Shown: in pieces, positions 22,399 to 40,485 of the stretch
How positions within the stretch are numbered: the first letter of the stretch is position 1
Layout of the letters: the number at the start of each line of letters is the position of its first letter
NCBI RefSeq assembly: GCF_000236565.1
Contig: NZ_AHAM01000020.1
Location: forward strand, 1 to 64,000
Direction of reading: 5' to 3'
Source: Mesorhizobium alhagi CCNWXJ12-2
Lineage (GTDB): Bacteria; Pseudomonadota; Alphaproteobacteria; Rhizobiales; Rhizobiaceae
DNA: 64,000 bases
Position numbers and translations under genes: made by a program
Notes under the pieces: generated by a model
Told to the model about the DNA's origin: nothing
What the model saw: the letters and a program-made list of their open reading frames with translations, nothing else
Databases searched by the model: none

Positions 22399-23194
22399 CC
22401 TTCGACCCCCTCTTCGCTGCGGCGGCATCGCGCTTGTGGGCGGCGTCGGTGCGCGCCTTAAGATCGCGAAGCGTGGCGAGTTCGAGTTCGCTAGGCGCCG
22501 GCGTCTCTTCGAGCGCCGGGGAGAATTTAACCGCCCAGCCGCAGGTCTCCTGGACCATTTCACGGGTGGCTCCCGGGTGCAACGACACGACTGTGAACTC
22601 CTTCGTTTCGGGATCGGGCTTCCAGATGGCGAGGTCGGTGACAAGCAGAGTCGGCCCCGCCGTGTCGATACCCAGGCGCTTGCGGTGATCGCCGCCCTCC
22701 CCATGGCCGAAAGAGGTGTAGAAGTCGATCTTCTCGACCATGCCGCGCTTGCTTTGCGCCATGGTGATATAGATTTCGCGAGACGAGGTCGCGATCTCCG
22801 GCGCGCCGCCGCCGCCCGGCAGACGCGTCTTGGGATGCGCGTAGTCGCCGATGACAGTGGTGTTGATGTTGCCGAATTTGTCGAGTTGCGCTGCGCCAAG
22901 GAAGCCGATCGAAATGCGTCCGCCCTGCAGCCAATAGCGGAACATTTCGGGCACCGAGACGGTGGTGACGGCCGTGTCGCAAAGCTCGCCGTCGCCTATC
23001 GAAAGCGGCAGCACGTCCGGCGCTGTCCCGATTGTGCCGCTCTCGTAGATCAGCGTGATGTCGGGCGCATGCGTCAGCCGCGCCACATTGCAAGCCGCCG
23101 AAGGGGCGCCGATGCCGACGAAGCAGACATCATCGTTCTTCAGCGCGCGCGACGCCGCGATGGTCATCATCTCGTTGGGCGTGAATCCGGTCAT
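22391..23194 (-). CDS. pcaJ: 3-oxoadipate CoA-transferase subunit B
   Basis: The 267-residue subunit of a class I CoA-transferase activates beta-ketoadipate with CoA from succinyl-CoA. The active-site glutamate is expected at Glu51 in LIYESGTIG. The glycine-rich loop LPGGGGAPEIA is present. It overlaps pcaI by 4 nt (ATGA) and pcaF by 8 nt. The sequence is of the GctB/rhizobial PcaJ type rather than close to Pseudomonas PcaJ; context supports PcaJ. Confidence 0.92.
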   Translation of the reverse strand: MTGFTPNEMMTIAASRALKNDDVCFVGIGAPSAACNVARLTHAPDITLIYESGTIGTAPDVLPLSIGDGELCDTAVTTVSVPEMFRYWLQGGRISIGFLGAAQLDKFGNINTTVIGDYAHPKTRLPGGGGAPEIATSSREIYITMAQSKRGMVEKIDFYTSFGHGEGGDHRKRLGIDTAGPTLLVTDLAIWKPDPETKEFTVVSLHPGATREMVQETCGWAVKFSPALEETPAPSELELATLRDLKARTDAAHKRDAAAAKRGSKDG

Positions 23195-24066
23195 GCCACG
23201 CTCCTGAGACTTGCACCGGCCCTGAGACCTTCCACGCGCGCGGCGAAATCCTCCGGCTTGGCCCGCATCACGTTCTCCTCCATCCAGGCGCGGAAGCGGT
23301 CGCGATCGGCGCCAATCTCATCCCATTCGAGATAGGCCGCGTTGTCGCGGGCATAGCAGCCATGCGCGTAGGACGGATGTGAGCCACCGGGCACGATGGA
23401 GATGGCCGAAATCGTCCAGCGCGGCAGGATTGTCAGATTGGGATGCAGGCCGTCGAAGTCCTCGACCACCTCCTCGACCGTGACCACCGCGCGCTTGGCG
23501 GCGAGCACTGCTTCCTTCTGGATGCCGATAATGCCCTCGACGAGCACGTCGCCGCGCCGGTTAGCCTTCTGGGCGTGGATGAAGGTCACGTCGGGACGGA
23601 CCGCGGGGACGGCTGCCAGCTGTTCGCCGGTGAACGGACAGGTAATCGGCTTGATGTTCGGATTGACCTTCGCCAGTTCGGCGCCACGATAGCCGCGGAA
23701 GACGGCGCAGGGCAGTCCGGCCGCGCCCGCCTCATAGGCGTTGGCCATGGCGGCGTGGCTATGTTCCTCGATCTCCAGCGCGTTGGGGAAGCCGTTCTCG
23801 ACCGCATCGCGCACCCGGCGCAGGAGACCGACGCCGGGATTGCCGGCATAGGAGAAGACCAGCTTTTTCGCCATGCCCATGCCGACCATCTGATCGTAGA
23901 TCAGATCGGGGGTCATGCGGATCAGGGTGAGATTTCTGAATCCCTGACGGATCGCCTCATGCGCGGCAGCGGTCGGGATCAGATGGGTAAAGCCTTCAAA
24001 AGCGACCTTGTCGCCATCGCGCAAATTTTCGGCGACCGCATGTGCAAGCGGCAGGAACTTCGCCAT
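23191..24066 (-). CDS. pcaI: 3-oxoadipate CoA-transferase subunit A
   Basis: The 291-residue alpha subunit carries the CoA-binding FEGFTHLIPTAAAHEAIRQG region and FSYAGNPGVGLLRR. ATG 24066 was chosen because GGAGGAG lies 7 nt upstream; ATG 24072 is too close to it. First gene of the minus-strand unit pcaI-pcaJ-pcaF-binding protein-livHMGF-quiC. An operator palindrome is 20 bp upstream. Confidence 0.93.
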   Translation of the reverse strand: MAKFLPLAHAVAENLRDGDKVAFEGFTHLIPTAAAHEAIRQGFRNLTLIRMTPDLIYDQMVGMGMAKKLVFSYAGNPGVGLLRRVRDAVENGFPNALEIEEHSHAAMANAYEAGAAGLPCAVFRGYRGAELAKVNPNIKPITCPFTGEQLAAVPAVRPDVTFIHAQKANRRGDVLVEGIIGIQKEAVLAAKRAVVTVEEVVEDFDGLHPNLTILPRWTISAISIVPGGSHPSYAHGCYARDNAAYLEWDEIGADRDRFRAWMEENVMRAKPEDFAARVEGLRAGASLRSVA

Positions 24067-24086
24067 TCGCATCTCCTCCCAGCCCG

Positions 24087-24113
24087 ACAAATGTTCGTAT
24101 TGTGAACATTTGT
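24087..24113 (-). promoter_or_regulatory. Probable PcaR operator
   Basis: A perfect 10-bp inverted repeat, ACAAATGTTC and GAACATTTGT, with a 7-bp spacer lies in the 128-bp gap between pcaI and the divergent pcaR. A second pair, GTATTG (24097-24102) and CAATAC (24122-24127), overlaps it. IclR-family regulators bind such palindromes. Binding by PcaR is inferred from position. Confidence 0.75.
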
Positions 24114-24194
24114 TTTGTATGCAATACTCTTGATGGAGATTTGCACCGGTGTCAAGCTGCCTGCAGTGGACGCGCGGATTTTGGGGAGGACTAT

Positions 24195-24968
24195 ATGGCC
24201 GAGGCGCCGCTGCCACGCGACAATGTCGGCTCGCTCCAGCGTGGCCTTGCCGTGATGGAGATCCTGGCCGCCCATCCCGGCGGCCTGACGCTCACCGAAA
24301 TGGCCGAAAGGGCGCAATTGACGCGCGCCGGCGCGCGTCGTTTCCTGCTGACCTTGGTCGCCACTGAATACGCCGTCCAGGCTGGCCGTCGCTTCAGCCT
24401 GTCGCCCCGGCTGCTCTCGGTGGCGCGCACCTGGCTGCAAGGCGCGTCGCTCTGGTCTTACGCCGAGCCCTTCATGCGCGAAGTGGCGTCACGGCTTAAT
24501 GAATCGAGTTCGGCGGCGGTGCTCTCCGGCGAGGACGTGGTCTATGTCGCGCGCGTTCCCGGCCGGCACATATTGAGCGTGGCGCTGCATGTCGGGACGC
24601 GGCTGCCGGCCTGGTGCACCTCGATGGGACGCGTGCTTCTGTCGGACCTGCCCGCTCCGCAATTGCGGGAATTTCTGGAGAACGCAAAGATCGAGCGAAA
24701 CACCCACAAGAGCATCACCGACCGCGCGGCCCTGGCCTCCGAGATCACCAAGGCCGCGCAAGCAGGCTTCGCCATTGTCGACGAGGAACTGGAGATAGGG
24801 CTACGCTCGATCGCGGTGCCGATCCGCGACCGCTCTCGCAAGATCGTCGCCGCCATCAACGTGTCGACGCAATCGTCGCGGTTCACGACCGCCGAGATGA
24901 AGCGCGAAATCCTGCCGCATCTGCTCGCTGCTGCGCGCAATATTGAAGACTTTTTCATCGTCCAATAA
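24195..24968 (+). CDS. pcaR: IclR-family regulator PcaR
   Basis: The 257-residue regulator has an N-terminal winged helix (LTLTEMAERAQLTRAGARRF) and a C-terminal IclR effector domain (AWCTSMGRVLLS, FAIVDEELEIGLRSIAVPI). PcaR homologues control pcaIJF in response to beta-ketoadipate. ATG 24195 follows GGGGAGGA (24183-24190). The frame is open further upstream, but without a ribosome site. Divergent from pcaI. Confidence 0.93.
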   Translation: MAEAPLPRDNVGSLQRGLAVMEILAAHPGGLTLTEMAERAQLTRAGARRFLLTLVATEYAVQAGRRFSLSPRLLSVARTWLQGASLWSYAEPFMREVASRLNESSSAAVLSGEDVVYVARVPGRHILSVALHVGTRLPAWCTSMGRVLLSDLPAPQLREFLENAKIERNTHKSITDRAALASEITKAAQAGFAIVDEELEIGLRSIAVPIRDRSRKIVAAINVSTQSSRFTTAEMKREILPHLLAAARNIEDFFIVQ

Positions 24969-28748: not shown

Positions 28749-29945
28749 ATGAAGATCACATCCGTCAAAACCGTCCGGCTGGGCGAATTCGCTAACATCA
28801 TCTGGGTCCGCATCCACACCGATGAAGGATTGACCGGGCTTGGCGAGACCTTCATGGGCGCCGCCGCCGTCGAGGCGTATATCCACGAAACCGTCGCGCC
28901 GAAGCTGATCGGCCGCGACCCGCTGCAGATCGAGGCGATCAACCGCGATCTGATCGGTTATCTCGGCTGGCGCGGCGCGGGCGTAGAGACGCGCGGAAAT
29001 TCGGCGGTCGATATCGCGCTCTGGGATATTTTCGGGCAGGCGCTCGGCGTTCCGGTCAGCGTTGCGCTCGGCGGCAAAAGCCGGGATTCGATCCGCACCT
29101 ATAACACCTGCGCCGGCTACAAATATGTGCGCGACGCCCGCGCCCAGGCCGTCGAGAACTGGGGCGTCGGCGCAACCGAGGGCCCGTATGAGGATCTCGA
29201 CGGTTTCCTGAACCGCGCTGACGAATTGGCGCACTCCCTGCTGGAGCAGGGCATCACCGGCATGAAGATCTGGCCGTTCGACATCGCCGCCGAACGCACC
29301 GGCGGCCTCGACATCTCCGCCGAGGAGCTGCGCACCGCGCTGAAGCCGTTCGAGAAGATCCGCTCGGCCGTCGGCGACCGCATGGATATCATGGTCGAGT
29401 TCCATTCGCTGTGGCAGCTTCCCGCCGCGCAGCGCATCGCCCGTGCGCTCCAGCCTTTCGATACCTACTGGCATGAAGACCCGGTGCGGATGGATTCGCT
29501 GGAGACGCTGAAAGCGTATGCCCCGCATTCGAAGGCGATGATTTGCGCCTCCGAAACGCTTGCCTATCCGCATGCCTTCCGCGACTATCTCGCGACCGGC
29601 GTCGCCGGCGTGGCCATGCTCGACCTTTCATGGTGCGGCGGCCTGTCGGAAGCCCGCAAGATTGCCGGTATGGCCGAAGCCCATCACATTCCGGTCGCCC
29701 CCCACGATTGCACGGGCCCGGTCGTGTTCATGGCCTCGTGCCATTTCTCGCTGCACGCGCGCAATGCGCTGATCCAGGAATCCGTCCGCGCCTTCTACAC
29801 CGGCTGGTACACCGAGTTGGTCACCGAACTGCCGCGGGTGAAGAACGGCCAGATCAGCCTCGGCGACGCACCGGGCCTTGGCCTCACGCTTCTGCCGGGA
29901 CTGACCGAGCGCGCGGATGCCATCGTGCGCTCCAGCAACGCCTGA
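28749..29945 (+). CDS. Enolase-superfamily acid-sugar dehydratase
   Basis: The 398-residue protein belongs to the mandelate racemase/muconate-lactonizing group. It has an N-terminal capping domain and a TIM barrel. Candidate metal ligands are Glu217 (MVEFHS), Glu243 (WHEDP) and Glu269 (ASETL). Candidate acid/base residues are Lys173 (GMKIWPFD) and His319 (APHD). Such enzymes dehydrate or epimerise acid sugars such as galactonate or rhamnonate. The exact substrate cannot be read from sequence. Linked to a TRAP importer and a GntR regulator. Confidence 0.88.
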   Translation: MKITSVKTVRLGEFANIIWVRIHTDEGLTGLGETFMGAAAVEAYIHETVAPKLIGRDPLQIEAINRDLIGYLGWRGAGVETRGNSAVDIALWDIFGQALGVPVSVALGGKSRDSIRTYNTCAGYKYVRDARAQAVENWGVGATEGPYEDLDGFLNRADELAHSLLEQGITGMKIWPFDIAAERTGGLDISAEELRTALKPFEKIRSAVGDRMDIMVEFHSLWQLPAAQRIARALQPFDTYWHEDPVRMDSLETLKAYAPHSKAMICASETLAYPHAFRDYLATGVAGVAMLDLSWCGGLSEARKIAGMAEAHHIPVAPHDCTGPVVFMASCHFSLHARNALIQESVRAFYTGWYTELVTELPRVKNGQISLGDAPGLGLTLLPGLTERADAIVRSSNA

Positions 29946-30861: not shown

Positions 30862-32343
30862 CTACGCTTCCGTAACGACGGCCTCGGCTTCGATCTCGAC
30901 CTCGTAGTCGCCGATGAGATTGCCGGCCTCGATCAACGTGTTAGCCGGCAATACATCGCCGAAAACACGGCCATGTGCGCGCGACACCGGCTCCCAAAGC
31001 GCGGCATCGCGCAGGTAGATACGGGTGCGCACCACGTCTTCTATCCTGCCGCCGAGCGCGGTGATCGAAGCGGCGATCTTGTCGAGGATGTAAGTGGCCT
31101 GCGCGCCGGGGTCGCCGGGAGCGACGCAGCGGTCGGACGCATGGGTAGCCGTCGTGCCGGACACCCGGATCGTGTCCTTGACCCGCACCGCGCGGCTGTA
31201 GCCGGCGATCGGCTCCCAGACGCTGCCCGAAGAGACCCGCAGCCGCCCCGGCCGTCCCGGCACTGGCTCGGCCTTGAACACAGAAGGAATGGCGTCGAGA
31301 TGATGACTCAAGTCGCCGGACGCCGTGAGGTAGGGCGGGCGGCGGTATTCGTCGCCGCAATCGCCGGGGATTGGTTTCGTCCCTGCGAAAGTCTGTTCCA
31401 GCCTCGCTCTGTCCTCGGCGTCGAGCGCGAAGCCGAAGACGTTGAGATTGTCCGAGCGGTGCTCGCTTTCGCCGATCCTGGCGCCGACGATCGCCGCCGC
31501 CACAGCCTCGTGCTCCAGCACCCAGCGCGTCGCGACGTTGGAAATCGAGACGCCATGCTTTTGCGCGATTTCACCTGCCGCCGCCAATATGCCTTGGAAC
31601 GCCGTCCAACCACCCGCCGTGTCGATGAAGCGCTTGTATTTCGAGCGGCTCCAGTCAGCGATTTCGGTCGGCTCGGGCCGGCCCAGCCATTTGTCGGCGA
31701 GGAAGCCGCCGCATAGCGTGCCATAGGCCAGCAGCTTCACGCCGGATCTTTCGCAAAGCTGCGCCAGCGCACCCGCCGCCCGGCGGTCGATGATCGAGAA
31801 TGAAACCTGGTTGGTCGCGACCGGCACGCCGTCGGCCAGCGCCAATGCCAGATGAGCGGCGTCGAAATTGGTGACGCCGAGCGCGCCGATCAGGCCTTCC
31901 TGCCTCAACCGGGCCATTTCGTGCAGCGCGTCGAGCCATGCCGGATGCTCGAAGGTCCACCAGTGGAATTGCAGGAGGTCGATCCTGTCGACGCCGAGCC
32001 GGTCGAGCCGTTCCTGCACACCCTTTCGCACGATTTCCGCAGTCATCGGGCCGGGCTCGGGGCACCATTTGGTGAAAGCCGCCGGCCGGCGCGACGCATT
32101 GGGATAGCGCGCGAGCAGCCGCCCGGCGATCAGTTCGGCGCTGCCATAATGGTCTGCCATGTCGAACGTGTCGAAGCCCGCCTCGGCATAGGCCTGGAGC
32201 GCGTCGGCGGCGCGTTCGGGATCGAGCAGCCTGCCGCCCTTCTCGAGGTCCGCCACCTGCCATAATCCGCAGATCAGCCGGCTGATGTTGTTGTCACCAA
32301 GATCGATGCGGTCGGGACGTCTCTGCATGGAAGGCTCGCTCAT
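30862..32343 (-). CDS. Aldo/keto reductase fused to a RidA-like domain
   Basis: The product has 493 residues. Residues 1 to about 345 are an aldo/keto reductase with the tetrad Asp and Tyr in DMADHYGSAE, Lys in FTKWCPEP and His in QFHWW. Residues from about 365 to the end are a YjgF/RidA fold (DTIRVSGTTATHA, VVRTRIYLRD, EVEIEAEAVV). The Arg that RidA needs for imine hydrolysis, normally in a PAR(S/T) motif, is Asn468 here (LPANTLIEAG), so this domain is probably not a classical imine deaminase. It is coupled to livM by a 4-nt overlap as the last gene of the operon. Substrate unknown; a fusion of these two folds is unusual. Confidence 0.88.
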   Translation of the reverse strand: MSEPSMQRRPDRIDLGDNNISRLICGLWQVADLEKGGRLLDPERAADALQAYAEAGFDTFDMADHYGSAELIAGRLLARYPNASRRPAAFTKWCPEPGPMTAEIVRKGVQERLDRLGVDRIDLLQFHWWTFEHPAWLDALHEMARLRQEGLIGALGVTNFDAAHLALALADGVPVATNQVSFSIIDRRAAGALAQLCERSGVKLLAYGTLCGGFLADKWLGRPEPTEIADWSRSKYKRFIDTAGGWTAFQGILAAAGEIAQKHGVSISNVATRWVLEHEAVAAAIVGARIGESEHRSDNLNVFGFALDAEDRARLEQTFAGTKPIPGDCGDEYRRPPYLTASGDLSHHLDAIPSVFKAEPVPGRPGRLRVSSGSVWEPIAGYSRAVRVKDTIRVSGTTATHASDRCVAPGDPGAQATYILDKIAASITALGGRIEDVVRTRIYLRDAALWEPVSRAHGRVFGDVLPANTLIEAGNLIGDYEVEIEAEAVVTEA

Positions 32344-33326
32344 GGTTCGGATACCGGTTTGCCGGCGCTTCTGGCCAGCCGTCCTATGTGGCGGGAGACG
32401 GTCTTCACCTCGCCCAGAATGCCGCGCGGGCGCAACAGCAGGATGGCGCACAGGCCGACGCCGATCATCACGATCTGTAGCGAGGCAGCACGCGCCTGTT
32501 CGCCCGGCGGGAACAGCGACGCTATCGCGCCCGCCGAACCGGCCCAGATGCCCCAGACCAGGATCGCGCCGAGGATCGCGCCGCGATTGTTGCCGGAGCC
32601 GCCGACGATCAGCATCGCCCAGACCTGGAAGGTCAGCATCGGCATGTAATTGTCGGGCGCGATGAAGCCGATGAAATGCGCCTGCGCGGCGCCGGCGAGG
32701 CCCATGATTGCGCCGCCTATGGCAAATGCCTGCAGCCGGAATCTCGTCGCGCTCTTGCCGAGTGCGAGTGCGGCCGTCTCGTCCTCGCGGATGGCGCGCA
32801 GCACCCGGCCCCAGGGACTGCGCAGCAGCCGCTCCAGAGCGAGATAGAGCGCAAGCACGACCAGGACGAGGACGCCGAGATTGGCGAGACTGAAGGCCAG
32901 CGGATCGCCTGCCAGGCTGGCGAACGGCCGCGGAACGAAACCGATACCGAACGGCCCACCGGTGACCAGCTCCAGGTTGAGTGCGCAGAGTTGCACAGCG
33001 ACGGCGACGCCGAATGTCGCGATGGCGAGATAGTCGGCGCGTAGCCGAATGGTCAGCGCGCCGATCAGGAAGGCGACGAGCCCCGCCGCCAGCGCCGCGC
33101 CCAGCCAGCCGGCGACGATCGGCAGGCCGAAACCGCCGAAGCGGCCAGCCGCATCCGGCGTGGTCAGCAGCGCCGAGACATAGGCTCCGATCGCGACGAA
33201 ACCGGCAATGCCTACATTGAACAGGCCGGTCTGTCCCCACTGGACGTTGAGGCCGAGGCACATGATGGCGTAGGTCAGCGCCATGGTCAGGAAGAAAGCG
33301 CCGTAGGCGACCAGTTCGATGCTCAT
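32340..33326 (-). CDS. livM: Branched-chain-type ABC permease (LivM), second set
   Basis: The 328-residue permease has CLGLNVQWGQTGLFNVGIAGFVAIGAY near the N-terminus and GGSGNNRGAILGAILVWG near the C-terminus, both typical of LivM. Start ATG 33326 overlaps the livH stop (ATGA), and the stop overlaps the aldo/keto reductase start. The binding protein of this set is probably the one at 38180 on the other strand. Confidence 0.92.
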   Translation of the reverse strand: MSIELVAYGAFFLTMALTYAIMCLGLNVQWGQTGLFNVGIAGFVAIGAYVSALLTTPDAAGRFGGFGLPIVAGWLGAALAAGLVAFLIGALTIRLRADYLAIATFGVAVAVQLCALNLELVTGGPFGIGFVPRPFASLAGDPLAFSLANLGVLVLVVLALYLALERLLRSPWGRVLRAIREDETAALALGKSATRFRLQAFAIGGAIMGLAGAAQAHFIGFIAPDNYMPMLTFQVWAMLIVGGSGNNRGAILGAILVWGIWAGSAGAIASLFPPGEQARAASLQIVMIGVGLCAILLLRPRGILGEVKTVSRHIGRLARSAGKPVSEP

Positions 33327-34234
33327 TCCGGCCTCCCGAAAATCCCCTGCGGCCGGAAGAGCAGGACGGCGACCAGGATGACGAAGGCGATGGCAGCACG
33401 CCATTCGGCGCCGACGAACTGCACCGCGAAAGCCTCGGCAAGGCCGACGATCAGCCCGGCGAGCATCGCGCCCGGCACGCTGCCTATACCGCCGAGGATC
33501 GCCGCCGCGAACAGGGGCAACAGCAGGTCGAGGCCCATATAGGGACGGACCTGCACCAGCAGCCCGGCCATGATGCCGGCGACCGCCGCCAGTCCCGCCC
33601 CAAGCAGCCAGACGGTGCGGATCACCTTGCGCACGTCGACGCCGACGACGCCGGCAAGCTGCCGGTTTTCGCTCACCGCCCGCATCGAGCGGCCGATCGC
33701 GGTGCGGGTGAGCAGCAGATGGATGGCGACTACCAGAATTGCGGCGAGCCCAAGCGACAGCAACTGGTCCGGCGTCGCCCTCAGCCCTCCGCCGAGCGGC
33801 AGCGCGATCTGCAGCGCCTTGGTGTAGTAGGCGGGTTTTGCCGTGAAGATGAATTCGAGCAAGCTGCGCAGCGTCAGCGCAGCGCCGAAGCTCGCCATGA
33901 CCAAGATGATGACCGTACTGCGCTGCGCGCGCAGGCGACCGAACAGCATTGCGTCAACCAGGAGCGCAAGCCCGCCGGTCAATGCGATTGCCGCGATCGC
34001 CGCAATCGGCAGCGACCAGCCGAAGGAGAAAGGGCCGATCGGCGCCAGCAGCGAAGGAGCCAGCCAGCCGAGTGCGCCGCTCGCTGCAAGCGCGATGTAG
34101 GCGCCCCATGCCAGGAATTCGCCATGCGCGAAATTGGCGAAGCGCAGGATCGAATAGGTCAGCGTCACGCCGATCGCGCCGAGCCCTATCATCGAGCCGG
34201 TGACCAGCCCGTCCATAAGCGCCTGCGGGTTCAT
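33323..34234 (-). CDS. livH: Branched-chain-type ABC permease (LivH), second set
   Basis: The 303-residue permease has GLVTGSMIGLGAIGVTLTYS, RFANFAHGEFLAWGAY and a GGIGSVPGAMLAG loop, as in LivH. Both ends overlap neighbouring genes by 4 nt (ATGA), so the five genes from livG to the aldo/keto reductase fusion form one tightly coupled operon. Confidence 0.92.
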   Translation of the reverse strand: MNPQALMDGLVTGSMIGLGAIGVTLTYSILRFANFAHGEFLAWGAYIALAASGALGWLAPSLLAPIGPFSFGWSLPIAAIAAIALTGGLALLVDAMLFGRLRAQRSTVIILVMASFGAALTLRSLLEFIFTAKPAYYTKALQIALPLGGGLRATPDQLLSLGLAAILVVAIHLLLTRTAIGRSMRAVSENRQLAGVVGVDVRKVIRTVWLLGAGLAAVAGIMAGLLVQVRPYMGLDLLLPLFAAAILGGIGSVPGAMLAGLIVGLAEAFAVQFVGAEWRAAIAFVILVAVLLFRPQGIFGRPE

Positions 34235-34986
34235 CGGCCAGCCGCCTTCGGAACGTGCCGCGCGCCGAGATAGAGTTCCGCCACGATCGGATCGTCGGCG
34301 AGCGTCGCCGCCGGACCCTCATGGCGCAGCAGCCCTTCGACAAGGATAACCGCTCGGTCGGCGATGGCGAGCGCCGCCTTCACATTCTGCTCGACCAGGA
34401 CGATGGTGACCCCCGTTTCGTTGATCGCCTTCAGCGTCGAGAAAACCTCCGCGACGATCTTCGGGGACAGGCCGGCCGAGGGCTCGTCCAGGATCAGGAC
34501 CGACGGCTCGACGACCAGCGCCCGCGCCACGGCCAGCATCTGCCGCTGGCCGCCCGAAAGCTGGCCGGCGCGCAGCGACGGCCGTACAGCGAGATCGGGA
34601 AACATTCCATAAAGCGCGGCGATGCGATCCTGCCGCCGGTCTTTCGGCAGGATGTTCGCCGCCAGAAGCAGATTCTCATGGATGGAAAGCGTCGCGAAGA
34701 TGTTCTCGGTCTGCGGCACGAACGCCAGGCCGTGTTGGATCTTCTCATGGGCCGGCACAGATGTGATGTCGGCCGCGCCGAGCGATGCCGTTCCGGAATG
34801 CACCGGCACCAGCCCGGCTATCGCCTTGACGAAGGTAGACTTGCCGGCCCCGTTCGGCCCGAGCACCACGACCAGTTCCCCCCTGCGGATCACAAAATCG
34901 ACGCCGCGCACGATCGGCAGGTCGCGCTCGTAGCCGGCGACGAGAGCATGCGTCGAAAGCGCAATGGGCCGTTCGGGCACGCTCAC
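34231..34986 (-). CDS. livF: Branched-chain-type ABC transporter ATPase (LivF), second set
   Basis: The 251-residue ATPase has Walker A GPNGAGKST, signature LSGGQRQM and Walker B VLILDEPSAGLS. GTG 34986 is the preferred start: it overlaps the livG stop in GTGA and begins VSVPERPIAL. Upstream in-frame ATG 35097 lies inside livG. Confidence 0.92.
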   Translation of the reverse strand: MSVPERPIALSTHALVAGYERDLPIVRGVDFVIRRGELVVVLGPNGAGKSTFVKAIAGLVPVHSGTASLGAADITSVPAHEKIQHGLAFVPQTENIFATLSIHENLLLAANILPKDRRQDRIAALYGMFPDLAVRPSLRAGQLSGGQRQMLAVARALVVEPSVLILDEPSAGLSPKIVAEVFSTLKAINETGVTIVLVEQNVKAALAIADRAVILVEGLLRHEGPAATLADDPIVAELYLGARHVPKAAGR

Positions 34987-35792
34987 GCCGCGACCCCGCC
35001 GAGATAAGCTTCGATGACCGCCGGGTTGCGCGCGACCTCGGCCGGCGGCCCTTCGGCCAGGTGCCGCCCAGCCGCCATCACCACGACACGTCCGCAAAGC
35101 CGCGCCACCATTTCCATATTGTGCTCGATCAGCAGCACCGATTTCCCCCGCGCATTGAGGTCGAGAACGCGGTCGATGATGATCTCGAGCAGCGTCGGGT
35201 TGACGCCGGCCGCCGGCTCGTCGAGCAGGATGGTTTCGGGATCGGCCATCAATATGCGGGCAAGTTCGAGCAGCTTGCGCTGCCCGCCGGAAAGCACCCG
35301 CGCCGGTTCATCTTCGAGCCCGGATAGCGTGACGAAATCGAGCAGCGATCGCGCCCGGTCGACGGCGCCCTTCTCCTCGGCGGCGACGCGGCCGGGCTGC
35401 AGGAAATTCCTCCAGATGTGTTCGCCGGCCTGACTCTGGCCGCCGGTCAGCACGTTCTCCAGTACCGTCATCTCCGGAAACGGGCGCGGTATCTGGAACG
35501 TGCGCCCCAGACCGCGCGCGATGCGCCGCTCCGGGCCTTCACCGGACACCTCCTCGCCCGAAATCCGAATCGAGCCGGAGGTGGGCTTCAGGCTTCCGGC
35601 GATCAGGTTGAACAGCGTGGTCTTGCCTGCGCCATTTGGTCCGATAAGCCCCAGCATCTCGCCCCGTTGCAGCGCGATAGACATCCCGTCGACAGCGCGC
35701 AGTCCGCCGAACCGCCTCACCAGATCGCGCGCCTCCACGGGCGCGGCCGTTGCGGAACTCGTCGGTCTTGTTGCGTCGGCGACAGGCGGCAT
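34983..35792 (-). CDS. livG: Branched-chain-type ABC transporter ATPase (LivG), second set
   Basis: The 269-residue ATPase has Walker A GPNGAGKTTLFN, signature LSGGQRKL and Walker B TILLDEPAAGVNP, all normal (compare the altered copy at 17254). It is the first gene of the minus-strand operon and is divergent from the GntR gene. Start ATG 35792. Confidence 0.93.
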   Translation of the reverse strand: MPPVADATRPTSSATAAPVEARDLVRRFGGLRAVDGMSIALQRGEMLGLIGPNGAGKTTLFNLIAGSLKPTSGSIRISGEEVSGEGPERRIARGLGRTFQIPRPFPEMTVLENVLTGGQSQAGEHIWRNFLQPGRVAAEEKGAVDRARSLLDFVTLSGLEDEPARVLSGGQRKLLELARILMADPETILLDEPAAGVNPTLLEIIIDRVLDLNARGKSVLLIEHNMEMVARLCGRVVVMAAGRHLAEGPPAEVARNPAVIEAYLGGVAA

Positions 35793-35827
35793 CGCGGCAT
35801 CCGTGCGTCAAAATTGTGATCGCTGAT

Positions 35828-35839
35828 GTTTGATCAAAC
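35828..35839 (+). promoter_or_regulatory. Palindromic operator in livG/gntR gap
   Basis: GTTTGATCAAAC is a perfect 12-bp palindrome in the 180-bp gap between the divergent livG and gntR genes, 36 bp from the livG start. It is a plausible site for the adjacent GntR regulator, controlling both arms. Inferred from position. Confidence 0.6.
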
Positions 35840-35972
35840 TTTACATCGGCCCCAAACGCAACTAAAAAAAATCCGGATGGCCGCGCTCCGCGGCGTGAAG
35901 TCGAACGGCGGTCACAATGCCCGGACGGGAATGTCAGCGCGCAGTCGAATACGCCCGAACTGGGTTTTTCGC

Positions 35973-36686
35973 ATGAGCCGCCGCGCGCTCTCGCCGGTCG
36001 GCCGCGAAACCCTGCATGACCGCGTCTATGCCGAGCTGCGCCGCTCGCTGATCCACGGCATGTTCGACGCCGGCGACATGCTGCGCATCCAGGATGTCGC
36101 AGAGACGCTGCAGACCAGCACGATGCCGGTTCGCGAGGCGCTCGGCCGGCTCGTGTCCGAACAGGCGCTGGAGGCGCTGCCCAACCGCTCGGTGCGCGTG
36201 CCCGTTATCACCCGCGAAAGGCTGGACGATCTCGCCCGCGCACGCTGCCTGATCGAGGGGCAAATCACCGCGCTCGCTCTGCCCAACCTTTCGAGTGAGG
36301 ATTTCGCAAGACTTCGGCAGCTCACGGTCGAATGCGAGACGGCGTTCCGCGGCGATGAAAAGGACAAGGCGCAGACCACCTCCGAACTCAACCACGCCTT
36401 CCATTTCTACATTTACCGCGCCGCCGGCTCGGACGTGCTGATCCCGATCGTCGAAAGCCTATGGCTGCAGTCCGGCCCTTATGTGCGCGCCGCCGCCCAC
36501 ATCCATGACGAGCGCCGGGACATCCCTGCCACGCATCACCACTGGGCACTGATCGAGGCGCTGGAACGCGGCGACGTCGCCAGCTCCATCAAGGCGCTGA
36601 CTGACGACATCACCCGCTCCTTCAATCTCATCCGTTCCCGCCTCGACGAACAGGACATTCCGGAAAAGGCGGTGAGCTATGCCTGA
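35973..36686 (+). CDS. GntR-family (FCD) regulator
   Basis: The 237-residue regulator has a winged helix (ETLHDRVYAELRRSLIHGMF, IQDVAETLQTSTMPVREALGRL) and a C-terminal FCD domain with ELNHAFHFYIYRAAGS and THHHWALIEAL. ATG 35973 gives the usual short N-terminus; the open frame extends 49 codons upstream through the palindrome and is probably not translated. It overlaps the TIGR04076 gene by 8 nt. Confidence 0.9.
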   Translation: MSRRALSPVGRETLHDRVYAELRRSLIHGMFDAGDMLRIQDVAETLQTSTMPVREALGRLVSEQALEALPNRSVRVPVITRERLDDLARARCLIEGQITALALPNLSSEDFARLRQLTVECETAFRGDEKDKAQTTSELNHAFHFYIYRAAGSDVLIPIVESLWLQSGPYVRAAAHIHDERRDIPATHHHWALIEALERGDVASSIKALTDDITRSFNLIRSRLDEQDIPEKAVSYA

Positions 36687-37026
36687 CGCCCGCGACGATT
36701 CCTTCGAGCTTTACGATCTCCGCGTCGAGGTGACCGCGCCGGAAGGCGGCCCGATCTATTGCGGCGCCAAGGTCGGCGACCATTTCGAGTTGCGCGGCGA
36801 GATGCTGCATTTGCCACCGGGCCAAGGCTTTTCGATCTACTCGCTGGCTGCGCTCTTGCCGCTGCTGCCGGCCAAGCAGCGGCCGACCCACAAGAACGAC
36901 TGGATGACCACCGACGCGGAAGTGGCCTGCCCCGACCCGAACTGCTCGTCCCGCTTCCGTATCACCCGGCTCGGCCTTCGCCGCTTCAGCCATGCCCAGA
37001 CCACGGCGGTGCCGCTCGATGGCTGA
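36679..37026 (+). CDS. TIGR04076-family protein
   Basis: The 115-residue cytosolic protein matches the TIGR04076 pattern: a short beta-rich fold with a CGAKVGDHFELRGEML section, a FSIYSLAALLPLLPAKQR helix and CPDPNC near the C-terminus. The cysteines could bind metal. No function is known for this family. It overlaps both neighbours by 8 nt, so it is made together with the regulator and the aldo/keto reductase, which suggests a role in the same pathway. Confidence 0.8.
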   Translation: MPDARDDSFELYDLRVEVTAPEGGPIYCGAKVGDHFELRGEMLHLPPGQGFSIYSLAALLPLLPAKQRPTHKNDWMTTDAEVACPDPNCSSRFRITRLGLRRFSHAQTTAVPLDG

Positions 37027-38086
37027 CCACACGGCAATGCAGCGCATCCAACTGGCGCCAGGCTACGAAATTTCGCGCGTCATTCGCGGCGGCTGGCAGC
37101 TCGCCGGCGGGCACGGCGCTGTCCGCAGCGACGATCCTATCGCCGATATGATCGCGTTCGCCGACGCCGGCATCACCACCTTCGACTGCGCCGATATCTA
37201 TACCGGCGTCGAGGAACTGATCGGCCGCTTCCGCCTGCGCTACCGCGACTTGCGCGGACAGGAAGCGCTCGACCGCATCCGGGTGCATACGAAATTCGTG
37301 CCCGATCTCGACGTGCTGCCGCGCATAACCAAGGCCTATGTCGAAGGCGTCATCGACCAGTCGCTGCGCCGGCTCAATCTCGAAAGCCTCGACCTCGTGC
37401 AGTTCCATTGGTGGGACTACGACGCGCCGCGCTGGTTGGAGGCGGCGCAATGGCTCGGCGAATTGCGCCGGGAAGGCAAGATCCGCCAGATCGGTGGGAC
37501 CAATTTCGACACCGACCACATGCTCGCTATGATCCAGGGAGGCGTGCCGCTTGTCTCGATGCAGGTGCAATATTCGCTGCTCGACGCCCGTCCGGCCAAG
37601 CGCATGGCGGCCGCGGCCACCCGCCACAGCGTCTCGCTTCTGTGCTACGGCACGGTGGCCGGCGGGTTCCTCGGCGACAAATGGCTGGGCGCCGCCGAGC
37701 CATCGGAGCCGCTCGAGAACCGCTCGCTGGTCAAGTACAAGCTCATCATCGACGATTTCGGCGGCTGGAATCTGTTCCAAACGCTGCTCAAGACCCTGCG
37801 CGGCATAGCAGACCGGCACGGCGTCGATGTCGCGACTGTGGCCAGCGCGGCCATGCTCTCGCGGCCGGGTGTCGCCGGCGTCATCGTCGGCGCGCGCAAC
37901 CGCTCGCACCTCCAGTCCAATCTGGCGATCTCCAGCCTGTCGCTGACTGAAGACGACCATGGCCGGATCGAGGCCGTTCTGGCCATGGCTAATCCGCTCT
38001 CAGGCGACGTCTATGAGCTCGAACGCAACCGGCACGGACGCCACGGCTCGATCATGAAATACAATCTCAACAAGGGAGCCGCCTGA
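37019..38086 (+). CDS. Aldo/keto reductase
   Basis: The 355-residue NAD(P)H-dependent oxidoreductase has tetrad residues Asp and Tyr (FDCADIYTGVEE), Lys (VHTKFVPD) and His (VQFHWWDY). It closely resembles the reductase half of the 30862-32343 fusion (shared QFHWW and GGFLxDKWLG), so the two are likely paralogues acting on related substrates. ATG 37019 overlaps the TIGR04076 stop; ATG 37037 is an alternative. The RidA domain is absent here. Confidence 0.88.
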   Translation: MADHTAMQRIQLAPGYEISRVIRGGWQLAGGHGAVRSDDPIADMIAFADAGITTFDCADIYTGVEELIGRFRLRYRDLRGQEALDRIRVHTKFVPDLDVLPRITKAYVEGVIDQSLRRLNLESLDLVQFHWWDYDAPRWLEAAQWLGELRREGKIRQIGGTNFDTDHMLAMIQGGVPLVSMQVQYSLLDARPAKRMAAAATRHSVSLLCYGTVAGGFLGDKWLGAAEPSEPLENRSLVKYKLIIDDFGGWNLFQTLLKTLRGIADRHGVDVATVASAAMLSRPGVAGVIVGARNRSHLQSNLAISSLSLTEDDHGRIEAVLAMANPLSGDVYELERNRHGRHGSIMKYNLNKGAA

Positions 38087-38179: not shown

Positions 38180-39445
38180 ATGAAGAAGATGCTTCTGATC
38201 ACCACGCTGCTGACCGGTCTTGTGGCGTCGGCCCTGCCGGCGGCTGCGCAGAATTGTGACATCACCATCGGCGTCGTCATGGAACTGACCGGCCCGGCCG
38301 GCGCCTATGGCCAGGCCGGCGCGAAGTCCGTCGAGATGGCCTTCCGCGACTTCAACGAGGCCGGCGGCGTCGGCGGCTGCAATCTCGTCACCGACACACG
38401 CGACAGCCAGAGCCAGGGCACCGTCGCGGTCGACCAGGCGACGCAGCTCGTCAATATCAAGAAGGTGCCGGTCGTCATCGGCGGCATCATCTCGTCGGTG
38501 TCGATTCCGATCCTGACCTCGGTCACCGCTCCGGCCGGCGTCGTGCAGGTTTCGCCCGCCTCGTCCTCGCCGACGCTGACCCAGCTTGCCCGCGACGGCA
38601 AGACCAACGGCGTCTTCTTCCGTACCATCACCTCGGATGCGCTGCAGGGCACGGCCGCCGCCAAATACGCGCTCGACCAGGGCCTGAAGAAGATCGCCAT
38701 CATCCACGTCAACAATGATTTCGGCGTCAACATGGTGCGCGAATTCACCGCCGCCTACGAAAAGCTCGGCGGCGGCATCACTTCGGTCACGCCCTACAAT
38801 GAGAAGCAGGCGAGCTACTCGTCCGAAGCGAGCGCGGCCATGGCCGGCGAGCCGGAAGCGCTCTACCTCGTCAGCTATCCCGTCGACGGCGCGACCATCG
38901 CCCGCGCCTGGATTTCAGGCGGCGGCGCGCCGAAATTCCTGCTCAATGACGGCATGAACTCGGCCGAATTCATAGAGGCCGTCGGCGCGCAATATCTGAA
39001 CGACGCCTACGGCACCTCCTCGGGCACCAGCCCGACCGCCTCGACCGAATATTTCAACAGCGCCTACGAGGAATTCTCGGGCGGCATCAAGCCGGACGCG
39101 CCGGCCGCCGACCGCTCCTACGACGCCGGCGCCATCGTGGCGCTGGCCGTGGCGAAGGCGGGCAAGGGCGACGCCGCCGCGATCAAGGCTGCAATCCCGC
39201 AAGTGGTCGCGGCCGGCGGCGAGCCGATCCACGCCGGCAAAGAAGAATTCGCCAAGGCGCTCGCTCTCATCAAGGAGGGCAAGCCGATCAAATATGAAGG
39301 CGTCATCGGCCCGGTCAGCTTCGACGAATATGGCGACATCACCGGTCCGTTCCGCCTGTGGCGCATCCAGAACGGCGAAGTGACCACGGTCGGCGAGATC
39401 AGCGCCGAGGAGGTCGGCAAGATAAAGAGCGGGCTGGCAAAGTAG
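38180..39445 (+). CDS. ABC transporter periplasmic binding protein (LivJ-type)
   Basis: The 421-residue type-1 periplasmic binding protein has signal peptide MKKMLLITTLLTGL..ALPAAA. The mature part has MELTGPAGAYGQAGAKSVEMA and HVNNDFGVNMVREF. An AAAAAGGGGAATGCGAC stretch precedes the start. It is the expected partner of the second LivHMGF set, though it is encoded in the divergent arm. It is convergent with the AroE-like gene, with a 25-nt gap. Confidence 0.92.
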   Translation: MKKMLLITTLLTGLVASALPAAAQNCDITIGVVMELTGPAGAYGQAGAKSVEMAFRDFNEAGGVGGCNLVTDTRDSQSQGTVAVDQATQLVNIKKVPVVIGGIISSVSIPILTSVTAPAGVVQVSPASSSPTLTQLARDGKTNGVFFRTITSDALQGTAAAKYALDQGLKKIAIIHVNNDFGVNMVREFTAAYEKLGGGITSVTPYNEKQASYSSEASAAMAGEPEALYLVSYPVDGATIARAWISGGGAPKFLLNDGMNSAEFIEAVGAQYLNDAYGTSSGTSPTASTEYFNSAYEEFSGGIKPDAPAADRSYDAGAIVALAVAKAGKGDAAAIKAAIPQVVAAGGEPIHAGKEEFAKALALIKEGKPIKYEGVIGPVSFDEYGDITGPFRLWRIQNGEVTTVGEISAEEVGKIKSGLAK

Positions 39446-39470: not shown

Positions 39471-40280
39471 TCAGCGCGCCGCCTCTCCCTGCCCGAGCAT
39501 GTGGTTGACGAGCAGTTCAGCCTGCGCGTTGAACATGCCGACGCCCATCATCGTGCCGCAGCCCAGATCGCGAGCGTGCTGCACGAGCGGCGAGACCGCC
39601 GGCCTGGTGATGACGTCGGCCACGAACTGATGCTTCGACAGGCGGGCGGCATCGACCGGCAGCGGGTCGCCCTCTTTCATGCCCATCGGCGTCGCATTGG
39701 CGACGAGATCGAAGCCTGTCGGGTCCGCGCTTCCGACTTCCGCCCGGCCGGGGAAGCGTCCCGCCAGCTTGGCGACCAGCCGGTCACGGCGCTCCGTATC
39801 GGCGTCGTAGATGGCGAGCCGCATCGCTCCGCGCTCCAGCATTTCGAGCGCGATTGCGGAACCCGCGCCGCCCGCCCCGACCAGCAGCGCCGACTTGCCG
39901 GCCACCGAAAAGCCTTCCCTGGCGATGCCGTCGAGATAGCCGACGCCGTCGAGATTGTCGCCGTCCCAGCGACCGTCCGCCAGCCGGCGCATGACATTGA
40001 CCGAACCAACGAAGGCCGCCCGCTCGGTCGTCAGGTCGCAATAATCGAGCGCGGCGAATTTGTGCGGCACGGTCACCACGATGCCGTCGAGGTTCTGCAT
40101 CAGCCGCACCGAGCGCATGAAGGCGGGCAGGTCAGCCGCGCCGACATGGGCAGGCACGACCAGCGCGTTGGCGCCGCGCCGCGCCAGTATCCCGGACAGG
40201 AAGGCCGGTGACTTCACCTGGGCGACCGGGTCGCCGATGATGATGAACAGCCGGGTTTCGCCGTCGAGCTTCAAGGTCAT
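39471..40280 (-). CDS. AroE-like (shikimate dehydrogenase family) oxidoreductase
   Basis: The 269-residue NAD(P)-dependent enzyme has the catalytic Lys74 (TVPHK) and Asp111 (DNLDG), the Rossmann GAGGAGSA and NATPMGM. The first substrate-binding position of true AroE (SxS before P) is Val22 here (QVKSP), as in atypical family members, so shikimate may not be its substrate. A biosynthetic role is less likely than a catabolic one, given its neighbours. ATG 40280 is preferred; ATG 40298 is possible. A decayed epimerase gene ends 1 nt upstream. Confidence 0.85.
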   Translation of the reverse strand: MTLKLDGETRLFIIIGDPVAQVKSPAFLSGILARRGANALVVPAHVGAADLPAFMRSVRLMQNLDGIVVTVPHKFAALDYCDLTTERAAFVGSVNVMRRLADGRWDGDNLDGVGYLDGIAREGFSVAGKSALLVGAGGAGSAIALEMLERGAMRLAIYDADTERRDRLVAKLAGRFPGRAEVGSADPTGFDLVANATPMGMKEGDPLPVDAARLSKHQFVADVITRPAVSPLVQHARDLGCGTMMGVGMFNAQAELLVNHMLGQGEAAR

Positions 40281-40281
40281 G

Positions 40282-40485
40282 TCAAACTCTCTTTCCATAA
40301 TGGGCGAGCGTACGCGCGATCCCGTCGGCCGCGCCCGTTTTCGGCAGGCCGGCGAGCCAGGCCGGCTGCGGTGCGATTTCAAGATCGGATGCGATCAGCA
40401 ACGGCGCGCCTCATATCCGCGCCGGACCAGCGCGCACCACCCATCCGCCCAGGACCCCGCAGCCACCTGTGATCAGGACGCGCAT
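40282..40485 (-). pseudogene. NAD-dependent epimerase remnant
   Basis: From ATG 40485 the frame reads MRVLITGGCGVLGGWVVRAG, the N-terminal Rossmann strand of a sugar-nucleotide or sugar-acid epimerase, and stops at 40411. After the stop, the same frame carries a typical epimerase C-terminus (LKTGAADGIARTLAHYGKR-like) up to TGA 40282. The roughly 250 central residues are missing, so this looks like an internal deletion. ATG 40485 overlaps the flavoprotein stop (TGATG), the arrangement of an intact operon gene. Confidence 0.7.

Follow-up and report, generated by a model that had tools for sequence, protein, structure and literature searches.

Rid proteins are trimers (PMC4433059, PMC1884159). 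In one of them, TdcF, the carboxylate of the ligand is held by Arg-105 and the keto oxygen by Glu-120 and the Cys-107 amide, 2-ketobutyrate being bound via Glu-120 and Cys-107 in what the authors consider to be the enol form (PMC1884159). Replacement of the corresponding Arg by Ala nearly abolishes the activity of plant and Salmonella enterica RidA (PMC4433059). This Arg is missing from the Rid4 to Rid7 subfamilies, with the position described as "variable in Rid5 and Rid6", and the four subfamilies were left without a function and said to "remain mysterious" (Niehaus 2015, PMC4433059). The available portions of that article give an assay for S. enterica Rid7 alone among them, and those of a 2017 paper back the prediction with a single Rid7 isolate (PMC5619798). 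The initial annotation of the locus described here had stated that Rid subfamilies without the Arg do not hydrolyze imines; the absence of the residue from Rid4-7 stands, but the inactivity was overstated, based as it is in these sources on one S. enterica Rid7. For the clade of the protein reported below, a step from no Arg to no imine chemistry would thus be unproven, and the missing Arg alone is a known subfamily property and no discovery.

The 64,000-nucleotide stretch of Mesorhizobium alhagi CCNWXJ12-2 DNA analyzed here (the window) encodes a Rid domain of this kind joined to an aldo/keto reductase (AKR). The gene lies on the minus strand (positions 30862 to 32343) and is a single uninterrupted frame of 493 amino acids by frame and Pfam analysis. 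Its AKR half (residues 22 to 317; 31393 to 32280, minus strand) matches PF00248 (Aldo_ket_red) with an E value of 2.9e-56 and 191.1 bits against a cut-off of 24, and the Rid half (residues 377 to 490; 30874 to 31215, minus strand) matches PF01042 (Ribonuc_L-PSP) with an E value of 5.6e-20 and 72 bits against a cut-off of 27.3; a genome search places the latter identically. The AKR-Rid fusion and the coordinates and residue number given for it in the initial annotation are therefore correct, the gene being on the minus strand. Between the halves runs a near-invariant linker (residues 326 to 349, PGDCGDEYRxPPxLTASGDLSHHL; 31297 to 31368, minus strand) in an alignment of 16 fusions picked for spread, down to 57% identity. 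The share of invariant positions in these 16 rows is 44% for residues 321 to 370, 35% for residues 20 to 320, and 27% for residues 371 to 490. D61, Y66, K92, and H127, which by AKR motifs we take to be the Asp-Tyr-Lys-His tetrad, are present in all 16. The ATG of the fusion shares 4 bases with the end of the upstream livM-like gene (32340 to 33404), an overlap of start and stop as in translationally coupled genes.

In the Rid half, the motif around the position of RidA/TdcF Arg-105 reads LPANTLIEAG (DVLPANTLIEAG), and by alignment to solved Rid proteins the position itself is occupied by Asn468 (codon at 30940 to 30942, minus strand). The replacement of Arg by Asn noted previously was borne out by phmmer alignments to Arg-bearing solved Rid proteins, in which Asn468 faces the catalytic Arg of 2dyy (PARV), 1x25 (PARV), and 3r0p (PARA). 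A search of public genomes gave 318 relatives among 368 pattern matches, of which the best 80 were retained. Asn468 is invariant in these 80 and the window protein (81/81, 73 to 93% identity) and in the 16 fusions of the spread set, all of which also carry the complete PANT string (residues 466 to 469), as do five more fusions from the family search (L179 to L183). Since it is invariant in both sets, Asn468 represents conservation, not decay, and as judged from these alignments is kept by selection. E483, E485, R384, R439, R441, T397, T398, and H457 are each likewise present in 16 of 16. E483 aligns with TdcF Glu-120, so that the protein has the Glu of the RidA subfamily and, at Arg-105, Asn468 in place of its Arg; the RidA subfamily model TIGR00004 gives 47.2 bits against a cut-off of 106.25.

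The two halves were found together consistently. An AKR-half profile run against 398 genomes of the phylum returned seven matches at E ≤ 1e-180, none of them in a frame shorter than 495 amino acids; the next matches listed were at 1.2e-75 and weaker, in shorter frames that included the second AKR gene of the window, akr2 (see below). With the Rid-half profile, 101 of the 398 genomes had a match at E ≤ 1e-12, and the top seven were the same seven frames. Among 151 genomes of the family there were 22 AKR-half matches at E ≤ 1e-120 in frames of at least 489 amino acids; the Rid half was directly seen in seven of these (G000, G331, G467, G480, G494, G511, and G531), and the other 15 were taken as fused from frame length only. 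No unfused version of the fusion's AKR was seen in the 398 phylum and 151 family genomes. Plasmid records contributed 18 matches at E ≤ 1e-100, 17 of them with a query coverage of 80% or more; an Ensifer adhaerens plasmid record covers residues 201 to 480 only.

By both sequence and predicted fold, the closest solved relative of the Rid half is Mycobacterium tuberculosis Rv2704 (3i7t), the best Foldseek match (E value of 5.2e-10) of a monomer model with a mean pLDDT of 78.3. The full-length AlphaFold model was not used for reading the pocket owing to its low confidence in the Rid half (ten-residue means of about 30 to 73, with residues 444 to 482 below 50). A tree of Rid domains was built from 93 rows and 130 columns, including the 11 other Rid domains of the same genome, four of which keep the Arg. 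Several of its branches are long and 25 of its 89 inner branches are open, and only well-supported groups were used. The 16 fused Rid domains form one clade (100/99), nested in a 51-row group that includes Rv2704 (98/97). Arg-105 is absent from all 51 rows of this group and Arg384, two residues after the pocket Tyr/Phe (the Tyr-17 equivalent), is present in all 51. Across the 93 rows, 51 have Arg at 384 and none at 468, 31 the reverse, 11 neither, and none both; in the 31 rows with Arg-105, position 384 is never Arg and most commonly Gln (13/31). Because the 51 rows with R384 form one group, this mutual exclusion amounts to about a single evolutionary event; many of the rows were moreover fetched using a profile of the fusion's own Rid domain. 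The likely subfamily name of the Rid half is Rid6 (YjgF_YER057c_UK114_like_6), Rv2704 being presumably a Rid6 protein; the features of that subfamily (no conserved Arg-105, Glu and Tyr/Phe kept) are all seen here, and Rid5 as described fits too. No assigned function was found for the Arg-105-less Rv2704 clade. Of 11 pattern matches to the Rid half in viruses, none was confirmed. In another genome (G420, contig C9, 14714 to 17196), two frames of 417 and 443 amino acids with three Rid matches each are apparently tandem-repeat Rid proteins.

The fusion closes a livG-livF-livH-livM-AKR-Rid series divergent to gntR-TIGR04076-akr2-sbp, and the two blocks include the genes of an importer of the HAAT type. 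The left-hand block, on the minus strand, comprises the livM-like permease (32340 to 33404, PF02653), the livH-like permease (33323 to 34234, PF02653), the livF-like ATPase (34231 to 35001, start uncertain, PF00005), and the livG-like ATPase (34983 to 35792, PF00005 and PF12399). On the plus strand follow a divergent GntR/FCD regulator (35826 to 36686, PF00392 and PF07729), a TIGR04076 small protein (36679 to 37026, 64.2 bits by NCBIfam against a cut-off of 33), the second AKR akr2 (36992 to 38086, PF00248; 40% identical to the fusion's AKR half), and the substrate-binding protein sbp (38180 to 39445, PF13458). At the loci of the best 80 of the 318 relatives and a match threshold of E ≤ 1e-15, livM was found in 80/80, livH, livF, and livG each in 78/80, gntR in 72/80, and TIGR04076, akr2, and sbp each in 73/80. 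The two loci without livF/G/H, sbp, akr2, and TIGR04076 (L070 and L084) are truncated where their contigs end. Five more (L020, L044, L045, L054, and L059) have no linked right-hand block; in all five genomes a TIGR04076 ortholog (74 to 79%) lies elsewhere, each time inside gntR-TIGR04076-akr2-sbp. The full set is hence present in the genomes of all 78 untruncated loci, linked in 73 and split in 5, with gntR in L081 as the sole gap. The locus L024, from a record titled Mycobacterium sp. KBS0706, is an alphaproteobacterial cassette with 83% identity, like the Inquilinus loci, and the title may be wrong.

Beyond these loci the gene order varies. In G319, G099, and Pannonibacter, sbp-livMHFG-akr2-TIGR04076 is divergent to the fusion, and in G511 gntR is divergent to TIGR04076-akr2-livGFHM-sbp-fusion; the importer proteins of G319, G099, and G511 share 36 to 53% identity with those of the window. 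Five of the 18 plasmid neighborhoods were inspected, four of which had TIGR04076, a second AKR, and HAAT genes, and no GntR is annotated in that of Microvirga. The Antarctobacter fusion (L131, 57% identity) has no adjoining akr2, TIGR04076, or HAAT genes and is a counterexample to strict cassette linkage; it adjoins polyamine-type transporter and glutamine-synthetase-family genes, an amine-compatible setting in a single record. In G147 (L203), akr2 and TIGR04076 lie by an MFS-type gene (by eye) and a contig end in a genome with no fusion-strength AKR match, so the pair can exist without the fusion. Among downstream frames of at least 150 amino acids, the commonest family (35% identity, 60% coverage) occurs at 18 of the 80 loci and resembles an ABC-transporter ATPase. 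An ornithine cyclodeaminase-family gene was considered as a guide to the substrate and rejected; it is near only five loci (L020, L044, L045, L054, and L059), too few for the purpose.

TIGR04076 proteins are "potentially involved in redox reactions or iron cluster metabolism" according to the available text of the only paper found to name them (PMC8667426). The window's copy has no Pfam match; three Cys (one in CG, one in CPDPxC) and one His are invariant in all 73 cassette copies, a pattern suggestive of a small protein of the metal or redox type. The family was found in 12 of 299 genomes, four with the fusion and five with the cassette type described next; the others are G147, G178 (L207, without cassette parts), and G022 (below the family cut-off).

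Five genomes of one genus (G123, G071, G274, G171, and G051) carry a sister cassette without the fusion, whose livMHFG, gntR, TIGR04076, akr2, and sbp products are 49 to 79% identical to those of the window. In all five, the gene that follows livM is not the fusion but one for an FAD oxidoreductase. For the L206 copy, Pfam gives DAO (1.1e-66) and NCBIfam gives L-pipecolate oxidase (NF050086) as the best model, with 305 bits, below the 600-bit cut-off. All five sister cassettes (L201, L202, L204, L205, and L206) also have DUF3830 and NTF2/DUF4440-like genes by TIGR04076 and akr2; an NTF2-like gene lies between akr2 and sbp in four fusion cassettes too (L086, L121, L181, and L182). No relative of the FAD protein above 46% identity was found in any of seven fusion genomes searched, two of which (G194 and G197) belong to the same genus. 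The FAD-type rows of the akr2 tree group as a single clade (100/100), which has the fusion-type L181 as its sister (100/99) and lies among fusion-type rows. The simplest reading of this arrangement suggests that the FAD enzyme displaced the fusion within an existing cassette. Having occurred once, in a single genus, the displacement suggests, and does not prove, that the two proteins serve the same step. DAO enzymes oxidize alcohols as well, and the displaced step may have changed instead of being swapped like for like.

Elsewhere in the window, a PcaR/PcaU/PobR-type IclR regulator (24042 to 24968, plus strand; 305.9 bits against a cut-off of 284.75) overlaps a divergent CoA-transferase-type gene (23191 to 24216, minus strand; PF01144), and beyond this pair lie a regulator of the GntR type, genes judged TRAP-type solely by eye, and a member of the enolase superfamily (28749 to 29945) nearest to galactonate dehydratase and below the cut-off of that model. 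In the window the cassette adjoins an AroE-like gene (39471 to 40382, minus strand) that reaches the cut-off of none of the shikimate dehydrogenase models listed; among the 80 loci it occurs only in the closest, L009.

Taken at the level of its sequence, the fusion is an intact, fixed member of a HAAT import and catabolism cassette, undescribed in the literature found. As to its function, we tentatively favor a reading in which it is bifunctional and performs, or couples to, an amine or imine-carbonyl step, with an NAD(P)-linked AKR and a Rid half that handles an imine or enamine. The HAAT importer would bring in a probably nitrogen-containing compound, on which, or on whose product, the AKR half would use NAD(P)(H); the Rid half would then process an adjacent unstable imine or enamine, or an enol tautomer. 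Toward the ligand, Glu483 would have the part that Glu-120 plays in TdcF, while orientation of the ligand would fall to some basic residue that is not Arg-105, with R384 as the leading candidate. The nearest Rid relative in the same genome (L127, contig C187), a standalone protein of the Arg-less clade, has a class-III aminotransferase gene on one side and a BKACE (beta-keto acid cleavage enzyme) gene on the other; a DAO-type gene lies some 6 kb upstream, and aldehyde dehydrogenase and OYE-type flavoprotein genes are close by. L126 of G071 resembles this setting by eye. Together with the displacement by the FAD enzyme, the neighbors of L127 make up a genome context that points towards amine chemistry. 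Other standalone relatives adjoin a DNA polymerase III tau-type gene (L122), a DUF502 gene (L124), and acyl-CoA and aldehyde dehydrogenase genes (L125). The favored reading is weakened by these last three neighborhoods, by G147 and Antarctobacter, by the score of the FAD protein below the pipecolate oxidase cut-off, by the usual action of AKRs on carbonyls, and by the fact that the displacement and the R384 clade are each single. A more specific version, which we consider quite improbable, would make the fusion a self-contained NAD(P)-dependent amine dehydrogenase/imine hydrolase, perhaps acting on a cyclic amine, in which the Arg has been relocated to the Tyr-17 strand (R384) from that of Arg-105 and whose step has been taken over by an FAD amine oxidase in the sister lineage.

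AKRs usually act on carbonyls, and with two of them per cassette the Rid half may act on, or simply bind, a nitrogen-free carbonyl or enol compound delivered by the AKR half, as a tautomerase or on a lactone or hemiketal, with Asn468 as a neutral ligand-binding residue. Binding of a carbonyl or enol compound was also what the initial annotation had put forward. This reading agrees with the retention of the Glu-120 equivalent and the loss of the carboxylate-anchoring Arg, and with the binding by TdcF of 2-ketobutyrate, in its enol form according to the authors (PMC1884159); the amine-oxidase-like nature of the FAD gene that replaces the fusion in five sister cassettes and the amine-type cluster around the closest relative in the same genome speak against it, however, and we regard it as somewhat unlikely. 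The Rid half might instead be noncatalytic, trimerizing the AKR or sensing a ligand, given that Rid proteins form trimers (PMC4433059, PMC1884159), that Arg-105 is absent, that the fused clade has a single origin (100/99), as would an accessory domain gained once, and that over the 16 rows the overall share of invariant positions is lower in the Rid half than in the AKR half (27% versus 35%). But E483, E485, R384, T397, T398, H457, and N468 are kept in 16 of 16, seemingly beyond the needs of a bare scaffold. We regard this reading as unlikely as well.

That the Rid half is a canonical RidA-type 2-imino acid deaminase despite Asn468 appears highly improbable. The Rid fold, the Glu, and the Tyr/Phe are kept, and in the available text a single Rid7 protein served to test the rule of no activity without the Arg (PMC4433059), but the Arg-to-Ala change nearly kills the plant and S. 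enterica enzymes (PMC4433059) and 4 of the 11 other Rid domains of the genome retain the Arg. An artefact, a frameshift, or a decaying gene has a negligible chance of accounting for the data and was ruled out by the one open frame, the 318 relatives among 368 pattern matches, and the invariant catalytic residues; nothing was found in its favor.

As far as the literature found goes, two things are new: the recurrence of the AKR-Rid fusion in a HAAT cassette, and the presence in one genus of an FAD amine-oxidase-like gene as its replacement. Literature searches with mostly open-access coverage, over titles and the starts of abstracts, returned no paper on such a fusion, and the gene-fusion survey PMC4921024 has RidA in its reference list only. 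An Arg-less Rid domain is here covalently tied to an enzyme, within a recurring uptake cassette, and replaced in one lineage by a better-known enzyme class. This setting offers a direct route to the function of such a domain, through the ligand of the binding protein and then an enzyme assay, and makes the fusion a test of the presence or absence of Arg-105 as a predictor of imine chemistry. If the amine dehydrogenase/imine hydrolase reading were true, an Arg-105-less Rid clade of this type would gain an assigned function. If the Rid half were inert, the locus would still be a catabolic module of many Alphaproteobacteria without a description in the literature found. Retained in many soil and marine bacteria, the fusion is a good handle on the arginine-less Rid proteins.

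Compared with the systems already described, the fusion shares with RidA/TdcF the fold, the Glu-120 equivalent, and the Tyr-17 equivalent (Tyr or Phe), but differs in having Asn at Arg-105 and an Arg (R384) two residues after the Tyr. It is closer to the Rv2704 clade, where Arg-105 is also absent (Thr in Rv2704) and R384, R439, R441, and both Glu are kept; in contrast to that clade, it is joined to an AKR and has Asn where the clade has Thr, Ser, or Ala. From the AKR superfamily (PF00248) it has the tetrad and the barrel, with the AKR11B4 glycerol dehydrogenase 3n2t as the best solved match to the AKR half by sequence (28% identity in the fold match, where 7utf ranked top), yet unlike the superfamily it bears a C-terminal Rid domain after a near-invariant linker. 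The L-pipecolate oxidase-like FAD oxidoreductase, lastly, occupies the operon place of the fusion after livM, next to a matching importer, akr2, TIGR04076, and GntR, but it belongs to an unrelated family and would use FAD where the fusion would use NAD(P).
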